From positions 1 through 49,500 of the forward strand of contig PNMF01000005.1 in NCBI GenBank assembly GCA_013823485.1: 49,500 nucleotides of DNA, given 5' to 3'. Shown piece after piece: positions 4,043 through 29,180 of this stretch; within the stretch, counting starts at the first letter, position 1, and each line of letters begins with the position of its first letter. The notes below the pieces were generated by a model, which was not told the origin of the DNA, did not search any database, and saw only the letters and a program-made list of their open reading frames with translations. The position numbers and the translations under genes were made by a program. The DNA comes from Comamonadaceae bacterium (lineage in GTDB: Bacteria; Pseudomonadota; Gammaproteobacteria; Burkholderiales; Burkholderiaceae_C).

Positions 4043-5245
4043 ATGCAGGAATTCGACGCCATCATCATCGGGGCCGGCGCTGCCGGCCTTTTTTGCGCCG
4101 GGGTGGCCGGCCAGCGCGGGCGGCGGGTGCTGCTGATCGACCACAGCCCCAAGGTGGCCGAGAAGATCCGCATCTCCGGCGGCGGACGCGCCAACTTCAC
4201 CAACCGCGATCTGGACCCGCACGCCCCGCACCGGCACTTCGTCAGCCGCAATCCGCACTTCTGCCGCTCGGCGCTGTCGCGCTACACGCCGGCCGACTTC
4301 ATCGCCCTGGTGCAGCGGCACGGCGTGCCCTTCCATGAAAAGCACAAGGGCCAGCTGTTCTGCGACCGCTCGGCCGACGACCTGATCCAGCTCCTGCTGC
4401 GCGAGTGCGAGGCCGGCGGCGTGACCCGCTGGCAGCCCTGCCCGGTGCAGGCGGTGCGGCAGGACGGCAACGGGCATTACGAGGTCGACACCGGCCAGGG
4501 CACGGTCCGCGCCGCTTCGGTGGTGGTGGCCACCGGCGGGCTGTCGATCCCGCAGATCGGGGCCAGCGACTTCGGCCACCGGCTGGCCGCGCAATTCGGT
4601 CTGCGGCTGGTCGACACCGGCCCCGGGCTGGTGCCGCTGACCTTCGACGCGCAGGCCTGGGCACCGTTTGCCGAACTGGCCGGACTGGCGCTGCCGGTCG
4701 AGATGGCCACCGGCGAGAAAAAACAACGCATGGCCTTCCGCGAAGACCTGCTGTTCACCCACCGCGGCCTGTCCGGGCCGGCGGTGCTGCAGATCTCCAG
4801 CTACTGGCAGCCCGGCCAGCCGGTGCGGCTCGATCTGGCGCCCGGCACCGATCTGGAGCAGGAGCTGCTGCAGGCCAAGCTGCGCTCGCGCAAGCGGCTG
4901 GCCAACGAGCTGGCCACCTGGGTACCGTCCCGGCTGGCCGACACCTGGACCGGCGCCGACCCGGACTGGCAACGCCCGGTCATGGAAACCACCGACAAGG
5001 CGCTGGCCCGGCTGGCGCAACGGCTCTCGCGCTGGGAGCTCACCCCCACTGGCACCGAGGGCTACCGCAAGGCCGAGGTCACCCTGGGGGGCGTGGACAC
5101 CCGCGACCTGTCGTCCCAGACGATGGAATCGCGCCAGAAAGGCCTGTTCTTCATCGGTGAAGTGGTCGACGTGACCGGGTGGCTGGGCGGCTACAACTTC
5201 CAGTGGGCCTGGGCCAGCGCCCACGCCTGCGCCCAGGCACTTTGA
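4043..5245 (+). CDS. NAD(P)/FAD-dependent oxidoreductase, HI0933/BaiN-like flavoprotein
   Basis: DAIIIGAGAAGLFCAGVAGQRGRRVLLIDHSPKVAEKIRISGGGRANFTN ... GVDTRDLSSQTMESRQKGLFFIGEVVDVTGWLGGYNFQWAWASA. Confidence 0.9.
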   Translation: MQEFDAIIIGAGAAGLFCAGVAGQRGRRVLLIDHSPKVAEKIRISGGGRANFTNRDLDPHAPHRHFVSRNPHFCRSALSRYTPADFIALVQRHGVPFHEKHKGQLFCDRSADDLIQLLLRECEAGGVTRWQPCPVQAVRQDGNGHYEVDTGQGTVRAASVVVATGGLSIPQIGASDFGHRLAAQFGLRLVDTGPGLVPLTFDAQAWAPFAELAGLALPVEMATGEKKQRMAFREDLLFTHRGLSGPAVLQISSYWQPGQPVRLDLAPGTDLEQELLQAKLRSRKRLANELATWVPSRLADTWTGADPDWQRPVMETTDKALARLAQRLSRWELTPTGTEGYRKAEVTLGGVDTRDLSSQTMESRQKGLFFIGEVVDVTGWLGGYNFQWAWASAHACAQAL

Positions 5246-5286
5246 GCATGCCGGGCCGGGCCGATGGTCAAGGCCCGGCAAATGGC

Positions 5287-5292
5287 TATAAT
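5287..5292 (+). promoter_or_regulatory. Candidate -10 element (TATAAT) upstream of rpsU
   Basis: Exact TATAAT in the 5246-5418 intergenic region; no clear -35 seen. Confidence 0.4.
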
Positions 5293-5418
5293 CGCAGGCT
5301 TTGCTGGCAAATTCCCGTCGGCCAATACTAGTTAATGACGGGACACAACGCTGGAACGAAGGCCGGGCCCGATCTTCCCGACCATCCTCTTGCAGCACAT
5401 TCTGGAAATCACTGCCCA

Positions 5419-5631
5419 ATGACCACCATCCGTGTTAAAGACAACGAGCCGTTTGACGTTGCTCTGCGTCGCTTCAAGCGCACCATCGAGAAGCTCGGCC
5501 TGCTGACCGACCTGCGCGCCCGAGAGTTCTACGAAAAGCCCACCGCCGAGCGCAAGCGCAAGAAGGCCGCCGCCGTCAAACGCCACTACAAGCGTGTGCG
5601 TTCGATGCAGCTGCCCAAGAAGCTGTACTGA
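5419..5631 (+). CDS. rpsU: 30S ribosomal protein S21
   Basis: [70 protein letters not shown]. Confidence 0.98.
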
Positions 5632-5660
5632 TCCCCGCCAGGACTCCGGTCCCGGACAAA

Positions 5661-5693
5661 AGCCCGCCAGAGGACGCTCAGGCGGGCTTTTTT
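5661..5693 (+). terminator. Rho-independent terminator after rpsU
   Basis: AGCCCGCC-agaggacgctca-GGCGGGCT followed by a T run. Confidence 0.85.
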
Positions 5694-5735
5694 GACGTCT
5701 GGGGCCCCGCCCGACACCCACCCACAGGAAACGCC

Positions 5736-6182
5736 ATGCCCATCAAGGACCAACTCGCCCAGGACATCAAGGCCGCCATGCTGGCCAAGGACAACCAGCG
5801 CCGCGACACGCTGCGCCTGCTGCAGGCCGCCATCAAGCAGCGCGAGGTGGACGAGCGCATCGAGCTCGACGACGCCGCCGTGATCGCGGTGGTCGACAAG
5901 CTGGTCAAGCAGCGCAAGGACTCGATCGCCGCCTTCGAGCAGGGTGGCCGCGCAGACCTCGCGGCCCAGGAAGCGGCCGAAATGGCCGTGCTGCAGACCT
6001 ACCTGCCGCAGCGCCTGTCGGCCGACGAGGTGGCGGCCGAAGTGCGCGCCATCGTGGCCGAGCTGGGCGCCGCCGGCCCGGGCGACATGGGCCGTGTCAT
6101 GGGTGCGGTCAAGACCCGGCTCGCCGGCAAGGCCGACATGGGCGCGGTGTCGGCAGCGGTCAAGGCGGCCCTGGCCGGCTGA
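5736..6182 (+). CDS. yqeY: GatB/YqeY domain-containing protein
   Basis: MPIKDQLAQDIKAAMLAKDNQRRDTLRLLQAAIKQREVDERIELDDAAVIAVVDKLVKQRKDSIAAFEQGGR ... YLPQRLSADEV. Confidence 0.92.
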   Translation: MPIKDQLAQDIKAAMLAKDNQRRDTLRLLQAAIKQREVDERIELDDAAVIAVVDKLVKQRKDSIAAFEQGGRADLAAQEAAEMAVLQTYLPQRLSADEVAAEVRAIVAELGAAGPGDMGRVMGAVKTRLAGKADMGAVSAAVKAALAG

Positions 6183-8953: not shown

Positions 8954-9613
8954 ATGTCCCGCAAACCCACCAAAGGCTATTTCGTCCGTGGCCAGTTCGT
9001 TGCCCTGGGCAGCGAACTCGACCTGGAGCTCAAGCGCGAGCTCAAGGGTTCGGTCGACATGAGCAAGACCGACCTCAAGAAGCACAGCGACCACCTGCAG
9101 CAGCTCGGCCACGAGCTGCTCACGCTGCGCAGCGACCTCATGGCGCGGCTGGACCTGAGCGACAAGCTCAAGGACGCGCTGGCCGAGGCCCGCCGCATCA
9201 CCGACTTTGAAGGCAAGCGCCGCCAGATGCAGTTCATCGGCAAGCTGATGCGGGGCCTGGACCCCGACGCGGTGGCTGCGGTGGAAGCTGCGCTGGACGA
9301 GCAGCGCAAGCCGTCGGCCGCCGAAACGCTGCGCCTGCACCAGGCCGAACAATGGCGCGACCGCCTGATCGCCGACGACCAGGCCCTCACCGGCTGGCTG
9401 GCCATCGACACCGAAGCCGACGCCCAGCAGCTGCGCACCCTGATCCGCCAGGCCCGCAAGGACGCCCAGGCCACCGCCGCGCAGGAACGTCCGGGCGAAG
9501 CGGTGCGCCACGGCCGCGCGTACCGCGAGATCTTCCAGCAGGTCAAGGCCGCCCTGGCACGGGGCGAGGCCGAAGCCGGCACCGACACCGAGCCCTCCAC
9601 CGACCATGACTGA
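8954..9613 (+). CDS. yjgA: Ribosome biogenesis factor YjgA (DarP)
   Basis: SRKPTKGYFVRGQFVALGSELDLELKRELKG ... ALAEARRITDFEGKRRQMQFIGKLMRGLDPDAV. Confidence 0.88.
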   Translation: MSRKPTKGYFVRGQFVALGSELDLELKRELKGSVDMSKTDLKKHSDHLQQLGHELLTLRSDLMARLDLSDKLKDALAEARRITDFEGKRRQMQFIGKLMRGLDPDAVAAVEAALDEQRKPSAAETLRLHQAEQWRDRLIADDQALTGWLAIDTEADAQQLRTLIRQARKDAQATAAQERPGEAVRHGRAYREIFQQVKAALARGEAEAGTDTEPSTDHD

Positions 9614-10217
9614 CATCAGCCCCCCGGCCGATGCCGTGCGCATCGGCATCGTCTCCATCAGCGACCGGGCCAGCACCGGCGTCTACCAGGACCAGGGCCT
9701 GCCCGCCCTGCAGGACTGGCTGACCCGCGCGCTGCACAACCCGATCAGCTTCGAGCCCCGCCTCATTCCCGACGAGGCCGACCGCATCAGCGCCACGCTG
9801 ATCGAACTGGTGGAGGCCGGCTGCTCGCTGGTGCTGACCACCGGCGGCACCGGCCCGGCCCTGCGCGACGTGACCCCGGAGGCCACGCTGGCCGTGGCGC
9901 ACAAGGAAATGCCGGGCTTCGGCGAGCAGATGCGCCAGATCAGCCTGGCCTTCGTGCCCACCGCCATCCTGTCGCGCCAGGTGGCGGTGATCCGCGACCA
10001 GAGCCTCATCATCAATCTGCCCGGCCAGCCCAAGGCGATTGCCGAAACGCTGGAAGGCCTGAAGAACCCCGATGGCTCCCAGCGGGTCAACGGCATCTTT
10101 GCCGCCGTGCCCTACTGCATCGACCTGATCGGCGGGCCCTACCTGGAAACCCGCGACGAGGTCGTGAAGGCCTTCCGCCCCAAATCTGCCGTGCGCCCAC
10201 CGCGCGCGACCACCTGA
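9606..10217 (+). CDS. mog: Molybdopterin adenylyltransferase
   Basis: VRIGIVSISDRASTGVYQDQGLPALQDWL ... LVLTTGGTGPALRDVTPEATLAVAHKEMPGFGEQMR. Confidence 0.93.
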   Translation: MTDISPPADAVRIGIVSISDRASTGVYQDQGLPALQDWLTRALHNPISFEPRLIPDEADRISATLIELVEAGCSLVLTTGGTGPALRDVTPEATLAVAHKEMPGFGEQMRQISLAFVPTAILSRQVAVIRDQSLIINLPGQPKAIAETLEGLKNPDGSQRVNGIFAAVPYCIDLIGGPYLETRDEVVKAFRPKSAVRPPRATT

Positions 10218-10230
10218 AACGGACACCCCC

Positions 10231-13290: not shown

Positions 13291-16128
13291 TCAGGCCAGC
13301 GGCAGCCTGAACCAGAAGGTGGCGCCCCGGCCGGGCGACGATTCGGCCCAGATCCGGCCCCCGTGGCGTTCGATGATCCGGGCCACGATGGCCAGCCCCA
13401 CGCCCATCCCGGGCACGGTCGAGCCCGGGTGCAGGCGCTGGAACAGGCCGAACAGCTTGCCGGCGCGGGCCATGTCGAAACCCATGCCGTTGTCGCGCAC
13501 GTAAAAGGCTTCCTGGGCGATGTCGAAGCCGATGGTCACTTGGGCACCGGCCACGTGCTGCGAGTACTTGATGGCGTTGTCCACCAGATTGCTCAGCACC
13601 TGGCGCAGCAGGATGGCGTCGCCCAGCGCCTGGGGCATGTGACCCGTCTCCACCTGCAGCGCGCCGCCCTCGGGCGTGAGCGCATCGACCACCGACCGGG
13701 CCAGCACGACCATGTCGACCGGCACCGGCACCATGTCGACCCGGACCACCCGCAGCAGCTCCAGCATGTCGGTGATCATGCGACCCATGTTGGCCGACGA
13801 CCGGGCCACCCGGGCGAACATGTCGGCCCCCTCCGGGCTCAGCCGGTCGCCCTCGGTTTCCTGCAGCACCGCCACAAAGCCGTTGACCGAGCGCAGCGGC
13901 GCGCGCAGGTCGTGGGCGATCGAATACGAGATGGTTTCCATGTCGCGCATGGAACGCTCGAGCTGCGCGGTGCGTTCCCGCACCCGCTGCTCCAGGCTGG
14001 CATTGAGCGCCCTCACCTCTTCCTGCGCGGTCACGCGGTCGGTGATGTCCAGGTGGGTGCCCGACATGTACATCACGCGGCCGTCTTCGGTGCGCCGGTG
14101 CACCCGGCCCCGGGTGTTGATCCAGATCCAGCGCCCCTGCTTGTGGCGCATGCGGATGTCGCATTCGTAGTACGGCAGCACGCCTTCGATGTGCAGATTG
14201 CTCAGGCGCAGGGCGTGCCGCAGATCGTCCGGGTGGGTCAGGCGCTCCCAGGTCTTCAGACTCACCGGCTCCAGCTCTTCGAGCGTGTAGCCGACGATCT
14301 CCGCCCAGCGGGCATCCACCCGCAAGGTGCCCGACCCCAGGTCGGCCTCCCAGATGCCGGGGCGGGTGGCTTCCAGAATCCAGGCCAGGCGCTGACGTTC
14401 GGCCTGCAGCGCGGCCTCGGACTCGCGCCGGGCGACCAGCGCACGGTGGGCCAGCACCAGCTGCCGCACCGCGCCCAGCAGGGGCTCCAGGAAGCGGATG
14501 TCCTCTTCCGAATAACCGCCCTCCTGGTTGGCCAGACCGACCATGGCCACCATGTGTTCACCCGCCATCAGCGGAATGCCCAGGAACGAGTCCATGCGCG
14601 GATGGCCGGGCGGCAGCCCGCCCCGGCGCGGATCGTCGGCCGGCTGGTTGGCAATGACGGGTTCGCGCGCCACCATGGCGTGGCCGAACAGGGTCTGCAG
14701 GTTGCGGAACACCAGGCCGGCCTCCCGGTGCTGCTGGTACATGCGGTGCGAGGCGTCGTCCCAGGAGATGTCGGTGATGGCGTGGGTGCGCAGATACGGC
14801 TGGCCGGCGGGGTCCTGCATCACCTCGCCCACAAAGCCGTACTCGCTGGCGGTGACCTTGAGGAAGGTTTCCAGCAGCCCCTCGAAGGCGCGGCGCTTGT
14901 CCTCGGCCTCGATGAACAGGGCCTGCGCCTGCCGCACCGCGTCCAGCATGCGCTGCTGCCGCTCGACCCGCTGCTGGGCCAGCCGCACCTCGGTGATGTC
15001 GGTGGTGTAGCCGTGCCAGATCACGCTGCCGTCCGGTTCGCGCTGGGGCGCCGCGTCGACCTGGTGCCAGCGCACCCCCTGCCGGGGCAGCACCACCCGG
15101 TAGGCATGGCTCCACAGCGTGAGGTCGCGGGCCGAGGCCTCCAGCGACGCCAGCGTGGGCTTGATGTCGTCGGGGTGCACCCGCGAGTACAGCCGGCGCA
15201 CATCGGCCATCAGCTCCTCGGGCGTGCATTCCAGCATGTCGATCGCGCGGTCGTTCACATAGGTGATCTGGCTGCTGCCGTCGGGCCGGCGCCGCGCCTG
15301 GTAGGTCAGGCCCGGCACCCGCTCGGCGATGTTGCGCATCAGCCGCAGCTGCTCGGCCAGTTGCAGCCGGGCCTCGCGCTCGTCGGTGATGTCGTGCACC
15401 ACGCCGAAGTCGGTCATGGGCTGACCGTCGACCAGGGTGCGGCCGACCCGGGTGCGGTACCAGCGGGTGCGGCCGTCGGGGTGCAGCCAGCGGAATTCGA
15501 CATCGCGGCCGTCGGCGGCCTCGCGGGCTTCCAGCCAGGCCGGCATGTCGTCCGGATGGATCAGGCCACGCCCCTGGCGCCGCGTGATCAGCTCCACCGG
15601 CTCCAGACCGGTCATGGCGTACATGCCGGGCGACCAGAACACGTGCTGCTCGCTGCCGGCGTTGGTCCAGTAGCCCACGCGGGCCACCTTCTCGATCTCG
15701 GCGTACAGCTCCAGCCGGTGCTGCAGCAGGCGGTTGGCTTCGGTCAGCGCCTGCTGGCTGAAACGCAGCGCCTCGTGGGTGACGGTTTCCTGAGAAGCGT
15801 CGGTGAAGATGTTGACGATCAGGGGGCCATCGGCGGAATCGACCAGCGAGGTGTGCAGCCGGACCGAATAGATGCGCCCCGGCCGCAGCATCAGCTGCAA
15901 CAGCTGCTCGTCGTTGGCGACCCGGTCGAGAAAGGCCCGGCGCTGCAGCGGGTCCGGCCAGTGGCCCAGCTCCAGCGTGGTCCGGCCGATGGCCTCTTCG
16001 CGCTGCAGACCGGTGAGTGTCAGCCAGGCCTGATTGACTTCCACCAGTCGGCCATCGCTGCGGCGGGTGACCGCCCCCGGCAAGGGCAGCCCTTCAAAAA
16101 ACGCTGCGTAAGGCAGGGGTGATGGCAT
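13291..16128 (-). CDS. Multi-PAS/GAF sensor histidine kinase
   Basis: Repeated PAS/PAC blocks (FRWLHPDGRTRWYRTRVGRTLVDG; RHKQGRWIWINTRGRVHRRTEDGRVMYMSGTHLDITDR), GAF block (FLGIPLMAGEHMVAMVGLANQEGGYSEEDIRFLEPLLGAVRQLV), H-box SYSIAHDLRAPLRSVNGF, HATPase motifs VLSNLVDNAIKYS and GMGVGLAIVARIIERHGGRIWAES. Start set at MPSPLPYAAF. Confidence 0.88.
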   Translation of the reverse strand: MPSPLPYAAFFEGLPLPGAVTRRSDGRLVEVNQAWLTLTGLQREEAIGRTTLELGHWPDPLQRRAFLDRVANDEQLLQLMLRPGRIYSVRLHTSLVDSADGPLIVNIFTDASQETVTHEALRFSQQALTEANRLLQHRLELYAEIEKVARVGYWTNAGSEQHVFWSPGMYAMTGLEPVELITRRQGRGLIHPDDMPAWLEAREAADGRDVEFRWLHPDGRTRWYRTRVGRTLVDGQPMTDFGVVHDITDEREARLQLAEQLRLMRNIAERVPGLTYQARRRPDGSSQITYVNDRAIDMLECTPEELMADVRRLYSRVHPDDIKPTLASLEASARDLTLWSHAYRVVLPRQGVRWHQVDAAPQREPDGSVIWHGYTTDITEVRLAQQRVERQQRMLDAVRQAQALFIEAEDKRRAFEGLLETFLKVTASEYGFVGEVMQDPAGQPYLRTHAITDISWDDASHRMYQQHREAGLVFRNLQTLFGHAMVAREPVIANQPADDPRRGGLPPGHPRMDSFLGIPLMAGEHMVAMVGLANQEGGYSEEDIRFLEPLLGAVRQLVLAHRALVARRESEAALQAERQRLAWILEATRPGIWEADLGSGTLRVDARWAEIVGYTLEELEPVSLKTWERLTHPDDLRHALRLSNLHIEGVLPYYECDIRMRHKQGRWIWINTRGRVHRRTEDGRVMYMSGTHLDITDRVTAQEEVRALNASLEQRVRERTAQLERSMRDMETISYSIAHDLRAPLRSVNGFVAVLQETEGDRLSPEGADMFARVARSSANMGRMITDMLELLRVVRVDMVPVPVDMVVLARSVVDALTPEGGALQVETGHMPQALGDAILLRQVLSNLVDNAIKYSQHVAGAQVTIGFDIAQEAFYVRDNGMGFDMARAGKLFGLFQRLHPGSTVPGMGVGLAIVARIIERHGGRIWAESSPGRGATFWFRLPLA

Positions 16129-16215
16129 GGCGGTTGCCGGTGGGGAGATGCCGGGGGGTTCCCGCCGGCCTGGGTTGATGTAAAACATTGTGCATGAAGC
16201 CCTGCACCACAGGGT

Positions 16216-17145
16216 ATGGGTCAACCCGCATCCAGTGGCTGCCAGCAGCCGCGCCGAGCCCGAATGAAAAATCCAGGTTTCATGCCGTTCATGCACCACG
16301 TCGGGGCCGGTCTGCTGCAGGTCATGCTGCAAGCACGATTCCTGCCCGCTGTGCTGGCCGGCGCCGCCGTCATCGGCATACAGCTCCACGCCACCTGGCA
16401 GGCCTGGTGGTACGGCGCCGAAGTGGCCTGGGCCAGCCATGCCGCCACGCTGCTGACCACACTGGCCGCGCTGTGGGTGGCGGTGGCCGTGGTGCGGGGC
16501 CAGGAGGCCGATCCGCCCGGCTCCACCAGCCTGTTCAGCGTGGCCCGGGGCCTGGCCACCGGCTACTACTTCAACTTCCTGCAACCGCTGCTGCGCAGCC
16601 TGCGGCAGGCCGGTCTGGACCCGGCCCGCACCGAGTCGCTGTTCACCCTGCAGCTCGACGGGCGCCCGCTTGACCGGCTGCCCCGGTTGCACGGCCTGGT
16701 GGTGGCCATACCATGCCAGGACCACCAGCACTGCAGCACCCCGGCGGCGGGTGCGGCGCTGATCGCGCAGCGCTGCGACGGGCTGCAGATGCACACCATC
16801 GTGTTCGACCACATCCGCCACACGCCGGACGCCGTCTGGAGCCGGCCGATCGAACTGCGCCTGCTGCGCGAGCGGGCCGACGGCCCCGCCGTCCTGCTGG
16901 ACGTGCCCACCACGCTCAACGTCATCCACGAAACGCTCAGCCACCAGACCACGGCCGACGGCCAGCCCTCGCCGGCTCAGCAGGCCACCGACCGGTTCGT
17001 GCAGGTGCTCAACGAGTTCCGCGACGTGGTGGCCCAGGTCGGCGGCGCCGATCCGTTGCGGCACCGCTCGCCCCTGCAGGTGCATGTGGTGCCGGCCGAG
17101 GTGGCCGAGCACCGCATCCGCGAACTGCTGTCCTCGGGAGCCTGA
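16216..17145 (+). CDS. Putative membrane-anchored STING-like cyclic-dinucleotide receptor (paralog 1): two TM helices plus STING-like domain
   Basis: Two N-terminal hydrophobic segments (FLPAVLAGAAVIGIQL; AATLLTTLAALWVAVAVV), then by-eye STING motifs in order: VARGLATGYYFNFLQPLL (human STING VAHGLAWSYYIGYLRLIL), LHGLVVAIPC (RLYILLPLDC), DAVWSRPIELRLLRERADGPAVLLDVPTTLNVI ([33 protein letters not shown]), FVQVLNEFRDVV (LFCRTLEDILAD), LQVHVVPAE (CRLIAYQEP). Alternative start ATG 16264. Confidence 0.7.
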   Translation: MGQPASSGCQQPRRARMKNPGFMPFMHHVGAGLLQVMLQARFLPAVLAGAAVIGIQLHATWQAWWYGAEVAWASHAATLLTTLAALWVAVAVVRGQEADPPGSTSLFSVARGLATGYYFNFLQPLLRSLRQAGLDPARTESLFTLQLDGRPLDRLPRLHGLVVAIPCQDHQHCSTPAAGAALIAQRCDGLQMHTIVFDHIRHTPDAVWSRPIELRLLRERADGPAVLLDVPTTLNVIHETLSHQTTADGQPSPAQQATDRFVQVLNEFRDVVAQVGGADPLRHRSPLQVHVVPAEVAEHRIRELLSSGA

Positions 17146-17148
17146 ACC

Positions 17149-18150
17149 ATGGCCGACCCCACATCGCTGTCGGCGCGCCTGCGCGCCCTCCCCTGGACCA
17201 GCCTGCTGGCGGTCGCCATTCCACTGCTGTCGGCCGGCTTCCAGCTCTGGGCGCTGCTGGCCGGGCAGGACGCGCCGGTCTGGCTCGGCCCGATCGAGTC
17301 GCTCGGCGTGACCCTGCTGGCCCTGCTGGTGGGGCTGTGGCTGCTGGCCCGGTCGGTGCGCGACACCCGGGCCCGGGCCGACCGTTTCCACGTCGGTGAA
17401 GCCCTGGCCGTCGGGTATGGGCTCAACTTCCTGCAGCCGACCGGGTACCGGCTGGAGCCGGGCCGGCCGGCCCGCCAGCTGCTGGTGCTGGCCGACGCGG
17501 CCGGTGGCCCCGAACCGCCGGAGCCCAGCCAGGTCCGGACGCTGCTGGTCGCCCTGCCCCGGGTGGTCGACGATCTGGACAACGCCAGCATCGTGGGCTT
17601 GCGACGCGCCCTGCAGCAGGGGCTGGGGGACGGCTGGTGGATCGGGTCGGCCCGCCTGAACCAGGCCGATGCCGCCCCGGTGCCGCCCGGCCCCGACACC
17701 CTGGCCGGCAAGCCGGCGGGGCTGGCCAACGGCAGCGGCGGGGCCGGCACCGGGCGCGGCGTGGGCGTGACCGCCGTGGTGCACCGGGCCAGCGGCGCGA
17801 CGGTGCTGATCGACCTGCCGTCCACCCTGACGGTGGTGCCCCACTTCGCCCGCTTCGTGGCCGGGCAGGAACTGGACGGATCGCCCTGGGCCAACGAACT
17901 GGTGGCCGCCGGGCGCAGCACCATCGTGCGCCGCTTTGAAGCCGCCAAATTCGCCCAGGTGCTGACCGACGGGCTGGACGGCGCTGCACCCGAACCGGCC
18001 GCCGAACCCTCGGCCGAAGACCTGCTGCGGCAGCGTCTGGGGCCGCTGCGCGACCGCATCCGGCTGGTGCCGATGGAACGGCCCGACCGGCCCGAACCGC
18101 TGCTGAAAGCGGTGCAGGACGCGGTGCAGGCCCTGCGGGCAGCGGCTTGA
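17149..18150 (+). CDS. Putative membrane-anchored STING-like cyclic-dinucleotide receptor (paralog 2)
   Basis: Same architecture as the preceding gene: two TM segments (SLLAVAIPLLSAGFQLWALLAG; SLGVTLLALLVGLWLLAR), then VGEALAVGYGLNFLQP, RTLLVALP, GATVLIDLPSTLTVV, FAQVLTDGL, RIRLVPMERP. Clear paralogy to gene 1; 3-bp intergenic gap. Confidence 0.65.
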   Translation: MADPTSLSARLRALPWTSLLAVAIPLLSAGFQLWALLAGQDAPVWLGPIESLGVTLLALLVGLWLLARSVRDTRARADRFHVGEALAVGYGLNFLQPTGYRLEPGRPARQLLVLADAAGGPEPPEPSQVRTLLVALPRVVDDLDNASIVGLRRALQQGLGDGWWIGSARLNQADAAPVPPGPDTLAGKPAGLANGSGGAGTGRGVGVTAVVHRASGATVLIDLPSTLTVVPHFARFVAGQELDGSPWANELVAAGRSTIVRRFEAAKFAQVLTDGLDGAAPEPAAEPSAEDLLRQRLGPLRDRIRLVPMERPDRPEPLLKAVQDAVQALRAAA

Positions 18151-18181
18151 CGCACCGCGACGGTGTGTCAACCTGACTAAG

Positions 18182-18199
18182 TGTCCACTTTGTGTGACA
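18182..18199. promoter_or_regulatory. TGT-N12-ACA palindrome (PpsR/CrtJ-type site) upstream of bchI
   Basis: TGTCCACTTTGTGTGACA, 12 bp before the bchI ATG. Confidence 0.6.
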
Positions 18200-18211
18200 T
18201 ACTGAATCTCT

Positions 18212-19240
18212 ATGGCCCAGCCCTACCCTTTTTCCGCCATCGTCGGTCAGGACGAGATGAAAACCGCCATCCTGATCGCGGCGGTCGACCCCAGCATCGG
18301 CGGCGTGCTGGTGCTGGGCGACCGGGGTACCGGCAAGAGCACCGCCGTGCGGGCGCTGGCCGCCCTGCTGCCCCCCATGAAAGCGGTGGCCGGCTGCCGT
18401 TACGGCTGTGACCCGGCCGACACCTCCAGCCGCTGCGAGCAGTGCGCGGCCCTCAAGCCCGAAGGCCGCGCGCCGCGCACCCACACCATTCCGGTCCCGG
18501 TGGTCGACCTGCCGCTGGGCGCCACCGAAGACCGGGTGGTCGGTGCGCTCGACCTGGAGCGCGCGCTGTCGCAGGGGGTCAAGGCCTTCGAGCCCGGCCT
18601 GCTGGCCCAGGCGCACCGGGGCTTTCTGTACATCGACGAGGTCAACCTGCTGGAAGACCACCTGGTCGACCTGCTGATCGACGTGGCCGCCTCGGGCGAG
18701 AACGTGGTCGAGCGCGAGGGCCTGAGCATCCGCCACCCTGCGCGCTTCGTGCTGGTGGGCAGCGGCAACCCGGAAGAAGGCGAACTGCGGCCACAGCTGC
18801 TCGACCGGTTCGGGCTGTCGGTGGAGGTGCGCACCCCTGAAGGCCTGGCCGACCGGGTCGAGGTGGTGCGCCGCCGCGACGCCTACGAACAGGACCGTGC
18901 GGCCTTCGTCGAAGCCTGGAAGAAGGAAGACGAGCGCGTGCGCCGGCAGATCGTCGCCGGCCGCAAGCGGCTGGCCTCGGTCCAGGTGCCCGACGCCGCC
19001 CGGCAACGCATCTCGGCGCTCTGCATGGCCCTGGGCACCGACGGCCTGCGCGGCGACCTCACCCTCATGCGGGCCGCCCGCGCCATGGCCGCGCTCGACG
19101 GCGATGCCGAAGTGGGCGATGCCCACCTCAGGCGCGTGGCGGCACCCGCCCTGCGCCACCGCCTGCGCCGCAACCCGCTGGACAGCACCGGCTCGACCAG
19201 CCGCGTCGACCGCGCGGTGTCCGAACTGATGGGCGCATGA
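18212..19240 (+). CDS. bchI: Magnesium chelatase ATPase subunit I
   Basis: YPFSAIVGQDEMKTAILIAAVDPSIGGVLVLGDRGTGKSTAVRALAALLP ... LAQAHRGFLYIDEVNLLEDHLVDLLIDVAASGENVVEREG. Confidence 0.97.
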   Translation: MAQPYPFSAIVGQDEMKTAILIAAVDPSIGGVLVLGDRGTGKSTAVRALAALLPPMKAVAGCRYGCDPADTSSRCEQCAALKPEGRAPRTHTIPVPVVDLPLGATEDRVVGALDLERALSQGVKAFEPGLLAQAHRGFLYIDEVNLLEDHLVDLLIDVAASGENVVEREGLSIRHPARFVLVGSGNPEEGELRPQLLDRFGLSVEVRTPEGLADRVEVVRRRDAYEQDRAAFVEAWKKEDERVRRQIVAGRKRLASVQVPDAARQRISALCMALGTDGLRGDLTLMRAARAMAALDGDAEVGDAHLRRVAAPALRHRLRRNPLDSTGSTSRVDRAVSELMGA

Positions 19241-21090
19241 CCCTGACCGAGCGCCCGGCCCTCGGTGCCGATGCGGCACTGGCGGCGGCGCTGCTGGCCG
19301 TCGACCCGGCCGGCCTGGGTGGCCTGCACCTGTGCGCCGGTGCCGGCCCCGAACGCGATGCCTGGCTGGCCCTGCTGCGCCGCCTGATGCCCGCCGGCAG
19401 CCCCTGGCAGCGGGTGCCCCTGCACGCCGGCGAGTCCGCCCTGCTCGGCGGGCTCGACCTGGCCGCCACGCTGCAGGCCGCGCGCCCGGTGCTGCAGCCC
19501 GGCCTGCTGGCCCGCGCCGATGGCGGCACCCTGCTGCTGGGCAGCGCCGAACGCACGCCGACCCTGGTCGCCTCGCTGCTGGCCTCGGTGCTGGACCACG
19601 GCGAGATCCGGCTCCAGCGCGACGGCCTGTCGCAACGACAGCCCACCCGCTGGCTGCTGGTGGCCCTGGACGAGACCGTGCTCGAGAGCGACAGCCCGGA
19701 CGACGTCCTGCCCGCCGCACTGTCCGAACGGCTGGCGCTGCACCTGGACCTGCGGTCGATCCGGCCGGGGCCGCCCGGCGAAGCCCCGCCGGCCGATGCC
19801 GCCGCCGACTGGACCCACGCCGATGTGGCAGCAGCCCGCCTGCGGCTGCCGGGCGTCGAGCTGCCCGATGCCTGCCTGCAGGCCCTGTGCGCCACCGCGC
19901 TGGTCTGGGGCGTGGCCTCGCTGCGCGCACCGCTGATGGCGGTCCGGGTGGCCCGCGCCGCCGCCGCCCTGGACGGCAGCCGCACCGTGACGCAGACGCA
20001 TGCCGAGATCGCTGCCCGGCTGGTGCTGGCCCACCGCGCCACCCGCTGCCCGCCCGAGGCCACCGAGCCGGACGCCAGCGCCGAACAGCCCGAAGCCGAA
20101 GCCGGTGAACCCCAGGACAACGACCACACCCCCCGGGACACACCGCCACCCAATCCGGACGACCCCACCACCGAGTCCGCCGACAACGCCCCCGACCCGT
20201 CCGCCCGCGACCCGATGCAGGAGCGCCTGGTGGAAGCCGTGCGCGCCGTGCTGCCGACCGGGCTGCTGGCGGCGCTGCAGGCCGGCACGCTGGCCGGCCA
20301 GCCCCCCAGCCGGGGCAGCGGGCAGGCCGGCGCCGTGCTGCGCAACACCCCGCGCGGCCGCCCGATGGGCACCCGCCGGGGCGACCCCGGGCGCGGTCAG
20401 CGCCTGCATGTGCTGGACACCCTGCGGGCGGCGGCACCGTGGCAGACGCTGCGGCGTCCGCCCGGCGGGCCCGAGCGGCTGCGGGTAAGGCGCGACGACT
20501 TCCATGTGGTGCGGCACCGGCAGCACCGGCCCACCACCACCGTGTTCGTGGTGGACGCCTCCGGCTCCGCCGCCCTGCACCGGCTGGCCGAGGCCAAAGG
20601 TGCGGTCGAGCTGCTGCTGGCCGACTGTTATGTGCGGCGCGACCGGGTGGCGGTACTGGCCTTTCGTGGTCAGCAGGCCGAGGTGCTGCTGCCGCCCACC
20701 CGCTCACTGGCCCGCGCCCGACGCGAGCTGGCCGCCCTGCCCGGTGGCGGGGGCACACCGCTGGCCGCGGCCATCGACGCGGCACGCACCCTGGCGCTGC
20801 AGCTGCAACGCAGCGGCGACACGCCGGTGCTGGTGTTCCTGACCGACGGCCGGGCCAACATCGCCCACGACGGCACCCCCGGCCGCGCCCAGGCCGGGGC
20901 CGATGCCCTGACCCAGGCCGCGCTGCTGCGCGCCACCGGCCTCACCGCGCTGCTGATCGACACCTCGCCGCAACCGGCCGACGCCGCGCGCAGCGTGGCC
21001 CAGGGCATGGGGGCGCGTTATGTGCCGCTGCCCCACGCCGGCGCCACAGGCCTGTCGGCCGTGGTGCGTTCGGTGCTCCCGTCACCCTGA
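19237..21090 (+). CDS. bchD: Magnesium chelatase subunit D
   Basis: Inactive AAA-like N-terminus, acidic/Pro linker, C-terminal VWA domain (TTTVFVVDASGSAALHRLAEAKGAVELLLADCYVRRDRVAVLAFRG...AELLLPPTRSL-like); overlaps the bchI stop. Confidence 0.96.
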   Translation: MTLTERPALGADAALAAALLAVDPAGLGGLHLCAGAGPERDAWLALLRRLMPAGSPWQRVPLHAGESALLGGLDLAATLQAARPVLQPGLLARADGGTLLLGSAERTPTLVASLLASVLDHGEIRLQRDGLSQRQPTRWLLVALDETVLESDSPDDVLPAALSERLALHLDLRSIRPGPPGEAPPADAAADWTHADVAAARLRLPGVELPDACLQALCATALVWGVASLRAPLMAVRVARAAAALDGSRTVTQTHAEIAARLVLAHRATRCPPEATEPDASAEQPEAEAGEPQDNDHTPRDTPPPNPDDPTTESADNAPDPSARDPMQERLVEAVRAVLPTGLLAALQAGTLAGQPPSRGSGQAGAVLRNTPRGRPMGTRRGDPGRGQRLHVLDTLRAAAPWQTLRRPPGGPERLRVRRDDFHVVRHRQHRPTTTVFVVDASGSAALHRLAEAKGAVELLLADCYVRRDRVAVLAFRGQQAEVLLPPTRSLARARRELAALPGGGGTPLAAAIDAARTLALQLQRSGDTPVLVFLTDGRANIAHDGTPGRAQAGADALTQAALLRATGLTALLIDTSPQPADAARSVAQGMGARYVPLPHAGATGLSAVVRSVLPSP

Positions 21091-29162: not shown

Positions 29163-29180
29163 TGTCAATTTGAGTTGACA
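29163..29180. promoter_or_regulatory. TGT-N12-ACA site (PpsR/CrtJ-type) proximal to ccmA, in the ccmA/crtE divergent region
   Basis: TGTCAATTTGAGTTGACA. Confidence 0.65.

Follow-up and report, generated by a model that had tools for sequence, protein, structure and literature searches.

Tandem transmembrane STING paralogues beside the photosynthesis gene cluster of a Hydrogenophaga-type bacterium: a candidate cyclase-less two-subunit effector

The bacterial STINGs described in the literature consulted consist of one protein, form homodimers and are activated by a cyclase encoded in their own operon. The window analysed here, a stretch of 49,500 nucleotides from a Comamonadaceae bacterium (GCA_013823485.1, contig PNMF01000005.1), raises the question of what two STING-like proteins, p1 and p2, encoded by adjacent tandem ORFs only 3 nt apart, do without such a cyclase beside them. 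The pair offers a test case for heteromeric function of STING, for the ligand of an orphan STING and for the job of the membrane domain, and it places STING in Burkholderiales also outside CBASS-type operons. The best explanation, in which our confidence is about evenly balanced, is that the pair constitutes a cyclase-less Cap13-like TM-STING effector with two subunits of divided functions that possibly form a heteromer. The host genome is of the Hydrogenophaga type (assembly of 2.97 Mb in 218 contigs, 88.8% complete), and Hydrogenophaga records are its nearest sequenced relatives. The features discussed below are collected in Table 1.

Table 1. Positions of the genes, residues and sequence elements of the p1/p2 locus in the window
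Feature	Position	Strand	Basis
PAS/GAF sensor histidine kinase, left divergent neighbour of p1	13291-16128	-	Pfam
26-bp element GGTTGATGTAAAACATTGTGCATGAA, kinase/p1 intergenic region	16173-16198	+	identical in three species
p1, first TM-STING paralogue, 309 aa, two N-terminal TM helices and prok_STING domain	16216-17145	+	
p1 TM helix 1, about residues 41-60	16336-16395	+	hydropathy peak; model helix 40-65
p1 TM helix 2, about residues 75-93	16438-16494	+	hydropathy 1.93; model helix 72-97
p1 F121, base-stacking Phe (FsSTING F92 / PcSTING F171 equivalent)	16576-16578	+	alignment
p1 R210, equivalent of p2 lid Arg R203	16843-16845	+	alignment
p1 D229 (DVPTT), equivalent of p2 D222	16900-16902	+	alignment
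p1 alpha3-alpha4 loop, residues 243-260, shortened, variable	16942-16995	+	multiple alignment
p2, second TM-STING paralogue, 333 aa, two TM helices and divergent STING domain	17149-18150	+	
p2 TM helix 1, about residues 19-37	17203-17259	+	hydropathy 2.01; model helix 16-37
p2 TM helix 2, about residues 49-67	17293-17349	+	hydropathy 2.12; model helix 46-77
p2 G91, counterpart of p1 Y118, not the stacking residue	17419-17421	+	multiple alignment
p2 F94, stacking Phe kept (= p1 F121)	17428-17430	+	profile and multiple alignment
p2 lid insert, residues 171-202, Gly/Pro/Ala-rich	17659-17754	+	model and three-species alignment
p2 R203, kept lid Arg (FsSTING R153 position)	17755-17757	+	alignment
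p2 D222-T226 (DLPST), base-contacting Asp and P-x-T	17812-17826	+	alignment
p2 alpha3-alpha4 region, residues 241-268, intact, conserved	17869-17952	+	multiple alignment
11-bp hairpin, begins at p2 stop codon	18147-18171	+	
TGT-N12-ACA site (PpsR/CrtJ type), 5' of bchI	18182-18199	+	identical in three species
bchI and bchD, downstream of p2, start of photosynthesis gene cluster	18212-21090	+	genus-wide BchI comparison

p1 matches the Pfam family prok_STING (PF20300) with an E-value of 6.8e-15 and 55.7 bits, over the cut-off of 27.1. p2 reaches 17.3 bits and its orthologues 17.6 and 23.9 bits, with an E-value of 4.4e-5 for the orthologue in NZ_NFUT01000001.1 (L007); being under the cut-off, p2 is not counted as a Pfam member but, on profile and fold, as a divergent homologue of STING. 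BLASTP aligns the STING domains of p1 and p2 with each other (E 1e-5), and a p1-led profile, built from the p1 orthologues and two other TM-STINGs, matches p2 in its own genome (9.6e-9 and 5.6e-6). When the AlphaFold model of p2 (mean pLDDT 69) was compared with the PDB by Foldseek, the top nine matches all turned out to be STING, with a probability of 0.96-1.00 for the top eight. Among the best 50 matches of the weaker p1 model (mean pLDDT 58) there was nothing but STING, with E-values down to 2.1e-6, and the confidence of the models behind these fold matches is moderate. NCBIfam gave no match to either protein. Hydropathy and the models give both proteins the Cap13 architecture of two TM helices and a STING domain. 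On the profile, fold-match and two-TM-helix evidence, p1 and p2 are assigned to the TM-STINGs, and it is almost certain that both are STING. Chance likeness between them was ruled out by BLASTP, the p1-led profile and the fold search. The first-pass annotation of this DNA had read p2 as a second, divergent STING paralogue of p1 on the motifs GYGLNFLQP (residues 89-97), VLIDLPSTL (219-227) and PPGPDTLAGKPAGLANGSGGAGTGRG (179-204); the motifs are all present, and the paralogy is borne out by the same three comparisons.

Ko et al. (PMC8748872) described the ligand contacts of bacterial STINGs as a stacking Phe (FsSTING F92, PcSTING F171) and an Asp (FsSTING D169), and the lid motif as R-x-(Y/F) in class I and R-x-R in class II. 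The first lid Arg is described as conserved among characterised bacterial STINGs. The pocket was mapped on an alignment of solved STING sequences with both proteins, their orthologues and their relatives, and by profile alignment to 6WT4; the lid register depends on sequence motifs, namely the Pro that follows the lid motif, and on models of moderate confidence. The segment GYYFNFLQP of p1 occupies the same place as GYGLNFLQP of p2, the Phe of the shared GYxxNF aligns with FsSTING F92, and both copies carry the bacterial contact set, F121, R210 and D229 in p1 and F94, R203 and D222 in p2, the Arg being that of the second lid position. At the first lid position p1 has Trp and p2 has Thr; this Arg is gone from both copies, and there is therefore no asymmetry between them there. 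As aligned, the lid reads W-S-R in p1 and T-G-R in p2, which is not the class I (c-di-GMP) motif R-x-(Y/F), and of the class II motif R-x-R the second Arg alone is kept in each.

A loss of the pocket in p2 was thus ruled out at the published contact positions, where F94, R203, D222 and P-x-T are kept as in p1. The difference lies at G91, a position held by Tyr or Phe in 12 of 12 non-p2 STINGs aligned. The Tyr that it replaces is the equivalent of FsSTING F89, a neighbour of the stacking F92 and not a published ligand contact. The earlier claim of diverged pocket residues in p2 is therefore only partly right: the exchange of Tyr for Gly at an otherwise aromatic position stands, but the core contacts are the same in both copies. 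With F, R, D and P-x-T complete, neither copy looks pocket-dead, as would be expected of two independent homodimeric receptors that serve different ligands or thresholds after duplication, and the solved bacterial STINGs described in the literature consulted are homodimers. We nevertheless consider such independence unlikely, in view of the 3-nt spacing, the failure to find a lone copy in the genus and the complementary conservation of different regions set out below.

The copies differ at the lid. The p2 insert comprises 32 residues of low model confidence (disordered-looking) and is 72% identical across three species, compared with 68% for p2 as a whole. The first-pass annotation had noticed this Gly/Pro/Ala-rich insert and had put it ahead of the lid-like region; it is present, but it lies at the lid hairpin itself, directly before R203. 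The conserved insert specific to p2, together with the Gly where the other aligned STINGs always have an aromatic residue, could mean that p2 modulates p1 or serves it as an antitoxin-like partner, in which the lid flap or the missing aromatic residue blocks full lid closure. SfSTING activation requires lid closure, and p2 evolved fastest after the duplication (stem of 1.62 vs. 0.67). It appears quite unlikely that p2 is such a partner, and equally so that mixed dimers would stay inactive until a signal or a phage takes p2 away: the contact residues are kept in p2, and its oligomerisation loop is better kept than that of p1, which fits an active subunit equally well or better.

This loop, between alpha3 and alpha4, is 12-14 residues shorter in p1 than in p2, in the single TM-STING L002 of genome G048 and in the TM-STING L004 of G106 (multiple alignment). 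The distance from the Asp to the Phe of the next helix is 32 residues in p1, 45 in L002, 46 in p2 and 38-39 in the two solved STINGs counted. In ElSTING the alpha3-alpha4 loop makes the STING-STING filament contacts, and the SfSTING contact residues P276-Q279 fall in the same loop of the multiple alignment. With three orthologues per copy, 7 of 18 alpha3-alpha4 positions are invariant in p1 vs. 25 of 28 in p2 (Fisher 6e-4). The C-terminal part behaves in the opposite way, with 43 of 49 invariant positions in p1 vs. 31 of 65 in p2 (Fisher 9e-6, the same three species). Each copy thus keeps a region that the other let go. Such complementary conservation is suggestive of the pattern expected if p1 and p2 act together, and we hold it probable that the two do function jointly. 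That the working form is a p1/p2 heterodimer is a more tentative proposal, drawn from these sequence comparisons.

p1 was found in 3 of 68 genus genomes: the window genome, NZ_OY288135.1 (L006) and NZ_NFUT01000001.1. In all three p2 follows p1 directly, with the same order, spacing and flanks, and the pair always lies between the sensor kinase and bchI; no lone p1 occurs among the 68 genomes, and the p1-led profile, which is able to detect p2, had no further match in 400 genomes of the order. In the co-occurrence check that had been proposed for the pairing, p2 accompanied p1 in 3 of 3 genomes; because the three bearers form a single clade, 'always paired' amounts to one evolutionary event. 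Prok_STING proteins in general are rare: 5 of the 401 genomes searched in the family have them, as do 2 of 399 sampled from the whole phylum, and both counts include the window genome. Relatives of p1 were not found in phages, and relatives of p1 or p2 were not found in plasmids or viral contigs, and phage or plasmid carriage of the pair was rejected on these searches.

Across the three species p1 is 75-84% identical, p2 74-86% and BchI 96-98%. Both p1 and p2 are under purifying selection. The comparison of dN/dS suggested earlier gave values well below 1 for both copies (NG86; 0.26-0.31 for p1, 0.19-0.40 for p2, and 0.03-0.06 for bchI), and the ORFs are intact in all three species. These data bear on the idea of a decayed CBASS cassette that has lost its cyclase and whose p2 is drifting to a pseudogene. 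No cyclase adjoins the pair, p2 is under the Pfam cut-off and the pair is confined to one clade, as such a remnant would have it, but intact ORFs under constraint, with alpha1 96-100% and the p2 alpha3-alpha4 region 89% invariant, make it improbable. The pseudogene was rejected as the main reading on the dN/dS values.

To the right of p2 the photosynthesis cluster continues beyond bchI and bchD with bacteriochlorophyll, reaction-centre and carotenoid genes (Pfam matches of bchX/Y/Z type, reaction-centre L/M and cytochrome). The constant position of the pair directly upstream of bchI, in 3 of 3 genomes, would suit a role in photosynthesis or redox physiology, with nucleotide sensing that tunes membrane or bacteriochlorophyll functions. 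This role seems very improbable. BchI matches at 1e-60 occur in 25 genus genomes, about 24 of them with true BchI, and p1 is absent from the other bchI-bearing genomes of the genus; those inspected (17 of the genus, 27 of the family) have different genes upstream of bchI. Between p2 and bchI stand first the hairpin and then a PpsR-type site belonging to bchI itself, and bchI evolves far more slowly than p1 and p2. Membership of the pair in the photosynthesis operon is weakened by the relatives with bchI and without the pair, and by the separate PpsR-type site. Further TGT-N12-ACA sites of this type are seen in the photosynthesis cluster at window positions 29163, 29273, 29298, 31489 and 31515.

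The region 18140-18215 around the hairpin folds with -27.4 kcal/mol (z -3.1, window sequence); the same sequence is present in L006 and a shorter version in L007, and the hairpin is a possible transcript end. The 26-bp element before p1 is a candidate promoter or operator. An inverted repeat, ATGT-AAA-ACAT, lies within this element. The promoter scan gave no result. Judging from the element, the PpsR-type site and the hairpin, p1 and p2 probably form their own transcript. In 7 of 7 pair-free relatives examined, suhB adjoins the sensor kinase as backbone order and photosynthesis genes do not stand alongside, which places the pair, in one clade, where the backbone meets the photosynthesis cluster.

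As to the source of the signal, no CD-NTase stands beside the pair: the flanking genes are the same in the three genomes and none is a cyclase. PADLOC reported no defence gene around the pair. A SMODS search revealed no cyclase in the window genome (G000) or in G463, each about 88% complete; the pair-bearing assemblies lack 7-12% of the genome, and a SMODS-negative cyclase would also be missed. The third genome, G416, does contain a CD-NTase (PADLOC PDLC00824, 4e-137; L064 about 4976-6040, near a contig end). SMODS gives this genuine enzyme a score of just 24 bits, and a search with that model alone therefore underestimates the number of cyclases. The enzyme was rejected as the cyclase of the pair, because about 417 kb lie between it and the pair and it did not turn up in either of the other assemblies. 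The lack of a defence gene near the pair and of a cyclase common to the three genomes speaks against the effector interpretation that we prefer.

In the three pair-bearing genomes no GGDEF domain was detected, not even a candidate, and no EAL domain. GGDEF is present in 62 of 68 genus genomes, one of them of merely 2.2 Mb. Three other genus genomes are without GGDEF, and G451 (99% complete) has neither GGDEF nor EAL nor the STING pair. The pair is associated with the absence of GGDEF over the 68 genomes (Fisher 4e-4); as the pair-bearers are one clade and G451 lacks the pair, this counts as a single evolutionary observation. The absence of GGDEF and EAL fits the notion that a c-di-GMP-like ligand would be kept free for STING. 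In G048 the related single TM-STING occurs beside 11 GGDEF domains in one genome.

Among the closest known systems is Cap13, the TM-STING of CBASS (Flavobacteriaceae FsSTING, 6WT4), with which the pair shares the two TM helices and STING domain and the conserved Phe, second lid Arg and Asp; 6WT4 is the best PDB sequence match of the family profile A1 (E 2.3e-6). Unlike Cap13, which is single, p1 and p2 are tandem paralogues without an adjoining CD-NTase in the operon, both have lost the first lid Arg, p2 has gained the lid insert and p1 has a short alpha3-alpha4 loop. The TIR-STINGs (Cap12; SfSTING, PcSTING, MySTING, ElSTING) have the STING fold, stacking Phe and Asp in common with the pair, whereas p1 and p2 contain no TIR domain and no class I c-di-GMP-specific lid motif. 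L002 is 35% identical to p1 and 27% to p2 and has the same architecture; it differs by an R-P-R (class II-like) lid and joins the pocket helix of p1 with the long alpha3-alpha4 region of p2. Its contig is only 2.8 kb long, and an upstream partner gene is possible. In the tree p1, p2 and L002 form one group, with L002 placed weakly beside p2 (85/86), whose branch is long; the duplication may therefore be older than the split, and L002 is perhaps not a genuine single-copy ancestor.

Cap13 belongs to the oligomerising TM effectors that damage membranes (PMC10419184), and what the membrane domain does in bacterial TM-STINGs is stated to be unclear (PMC12421889). We assume that a single TM-STING like that of G048 was duplicated into p1 and p2 and that the work was then divided. 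p1 would have retained the usual STING core and C-terminal region with a shortened oligomerisation loop, and p2 would have retained this loop and gained a conserved flap at the lid. Both would be located in the inner membrane and sense a cyclic dinucleotide that is produced during infection or at another site in the cell; the ligand-bound proteins would assemble, probably as heteromers, and the complex would disturb or depolarise the membrane, as has been proposed for CBASS effectors of the TM type. The role of the pair is more probably antiviral than metabolic. A further-reaching proposal, rather doubtful at present, is that p1 and p2 make up one asymmetric receptor with a shared pocket for a foreign or different ligand and would be the first heteromeric bacterial STING. 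In such a receptor p1 would supply the standard core, and p2 the oligomerisation loop and lid flap; since the cells are without canonical c-di-GMP enzymes, the ligand would be a different or foreign cyclic dinucleotide, made by a phage or in trans. The first-pass annotation knew of no paired STING system, and likewise no account of a paired bacterial STING was found in the literature searched.

Further STINGs were noted in other genomes. L004 (G106) and L005 (G301), from the same bacterial family, resemble the pair in being cyclase-less two-TM STINGs; they differ in being single-copy, in their housekeeping neighbourhood near dcd and in clustering with FsSTING, not with p1 and p2. There is no cyclase in about 19 kb around the orphan TM-STINGs of G106 (L061:9098-10018) and G301 (L062 about 9095-10222), and the C-terminal part of the G301 protein looks frameshifted. 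In G132, with no CD-NTase on the 8.9-kb contig and no SMODS match in the genome, a STING domain follows a weak nucleoside-deoxyribosyltransferase/TIR-like domain (L060:4521-5591). Finally, the nearest single TM-STING, that of G048, shares its 2.8-kb contig (L063) with a REP-associated-type transposase gene, which suggests mobility.
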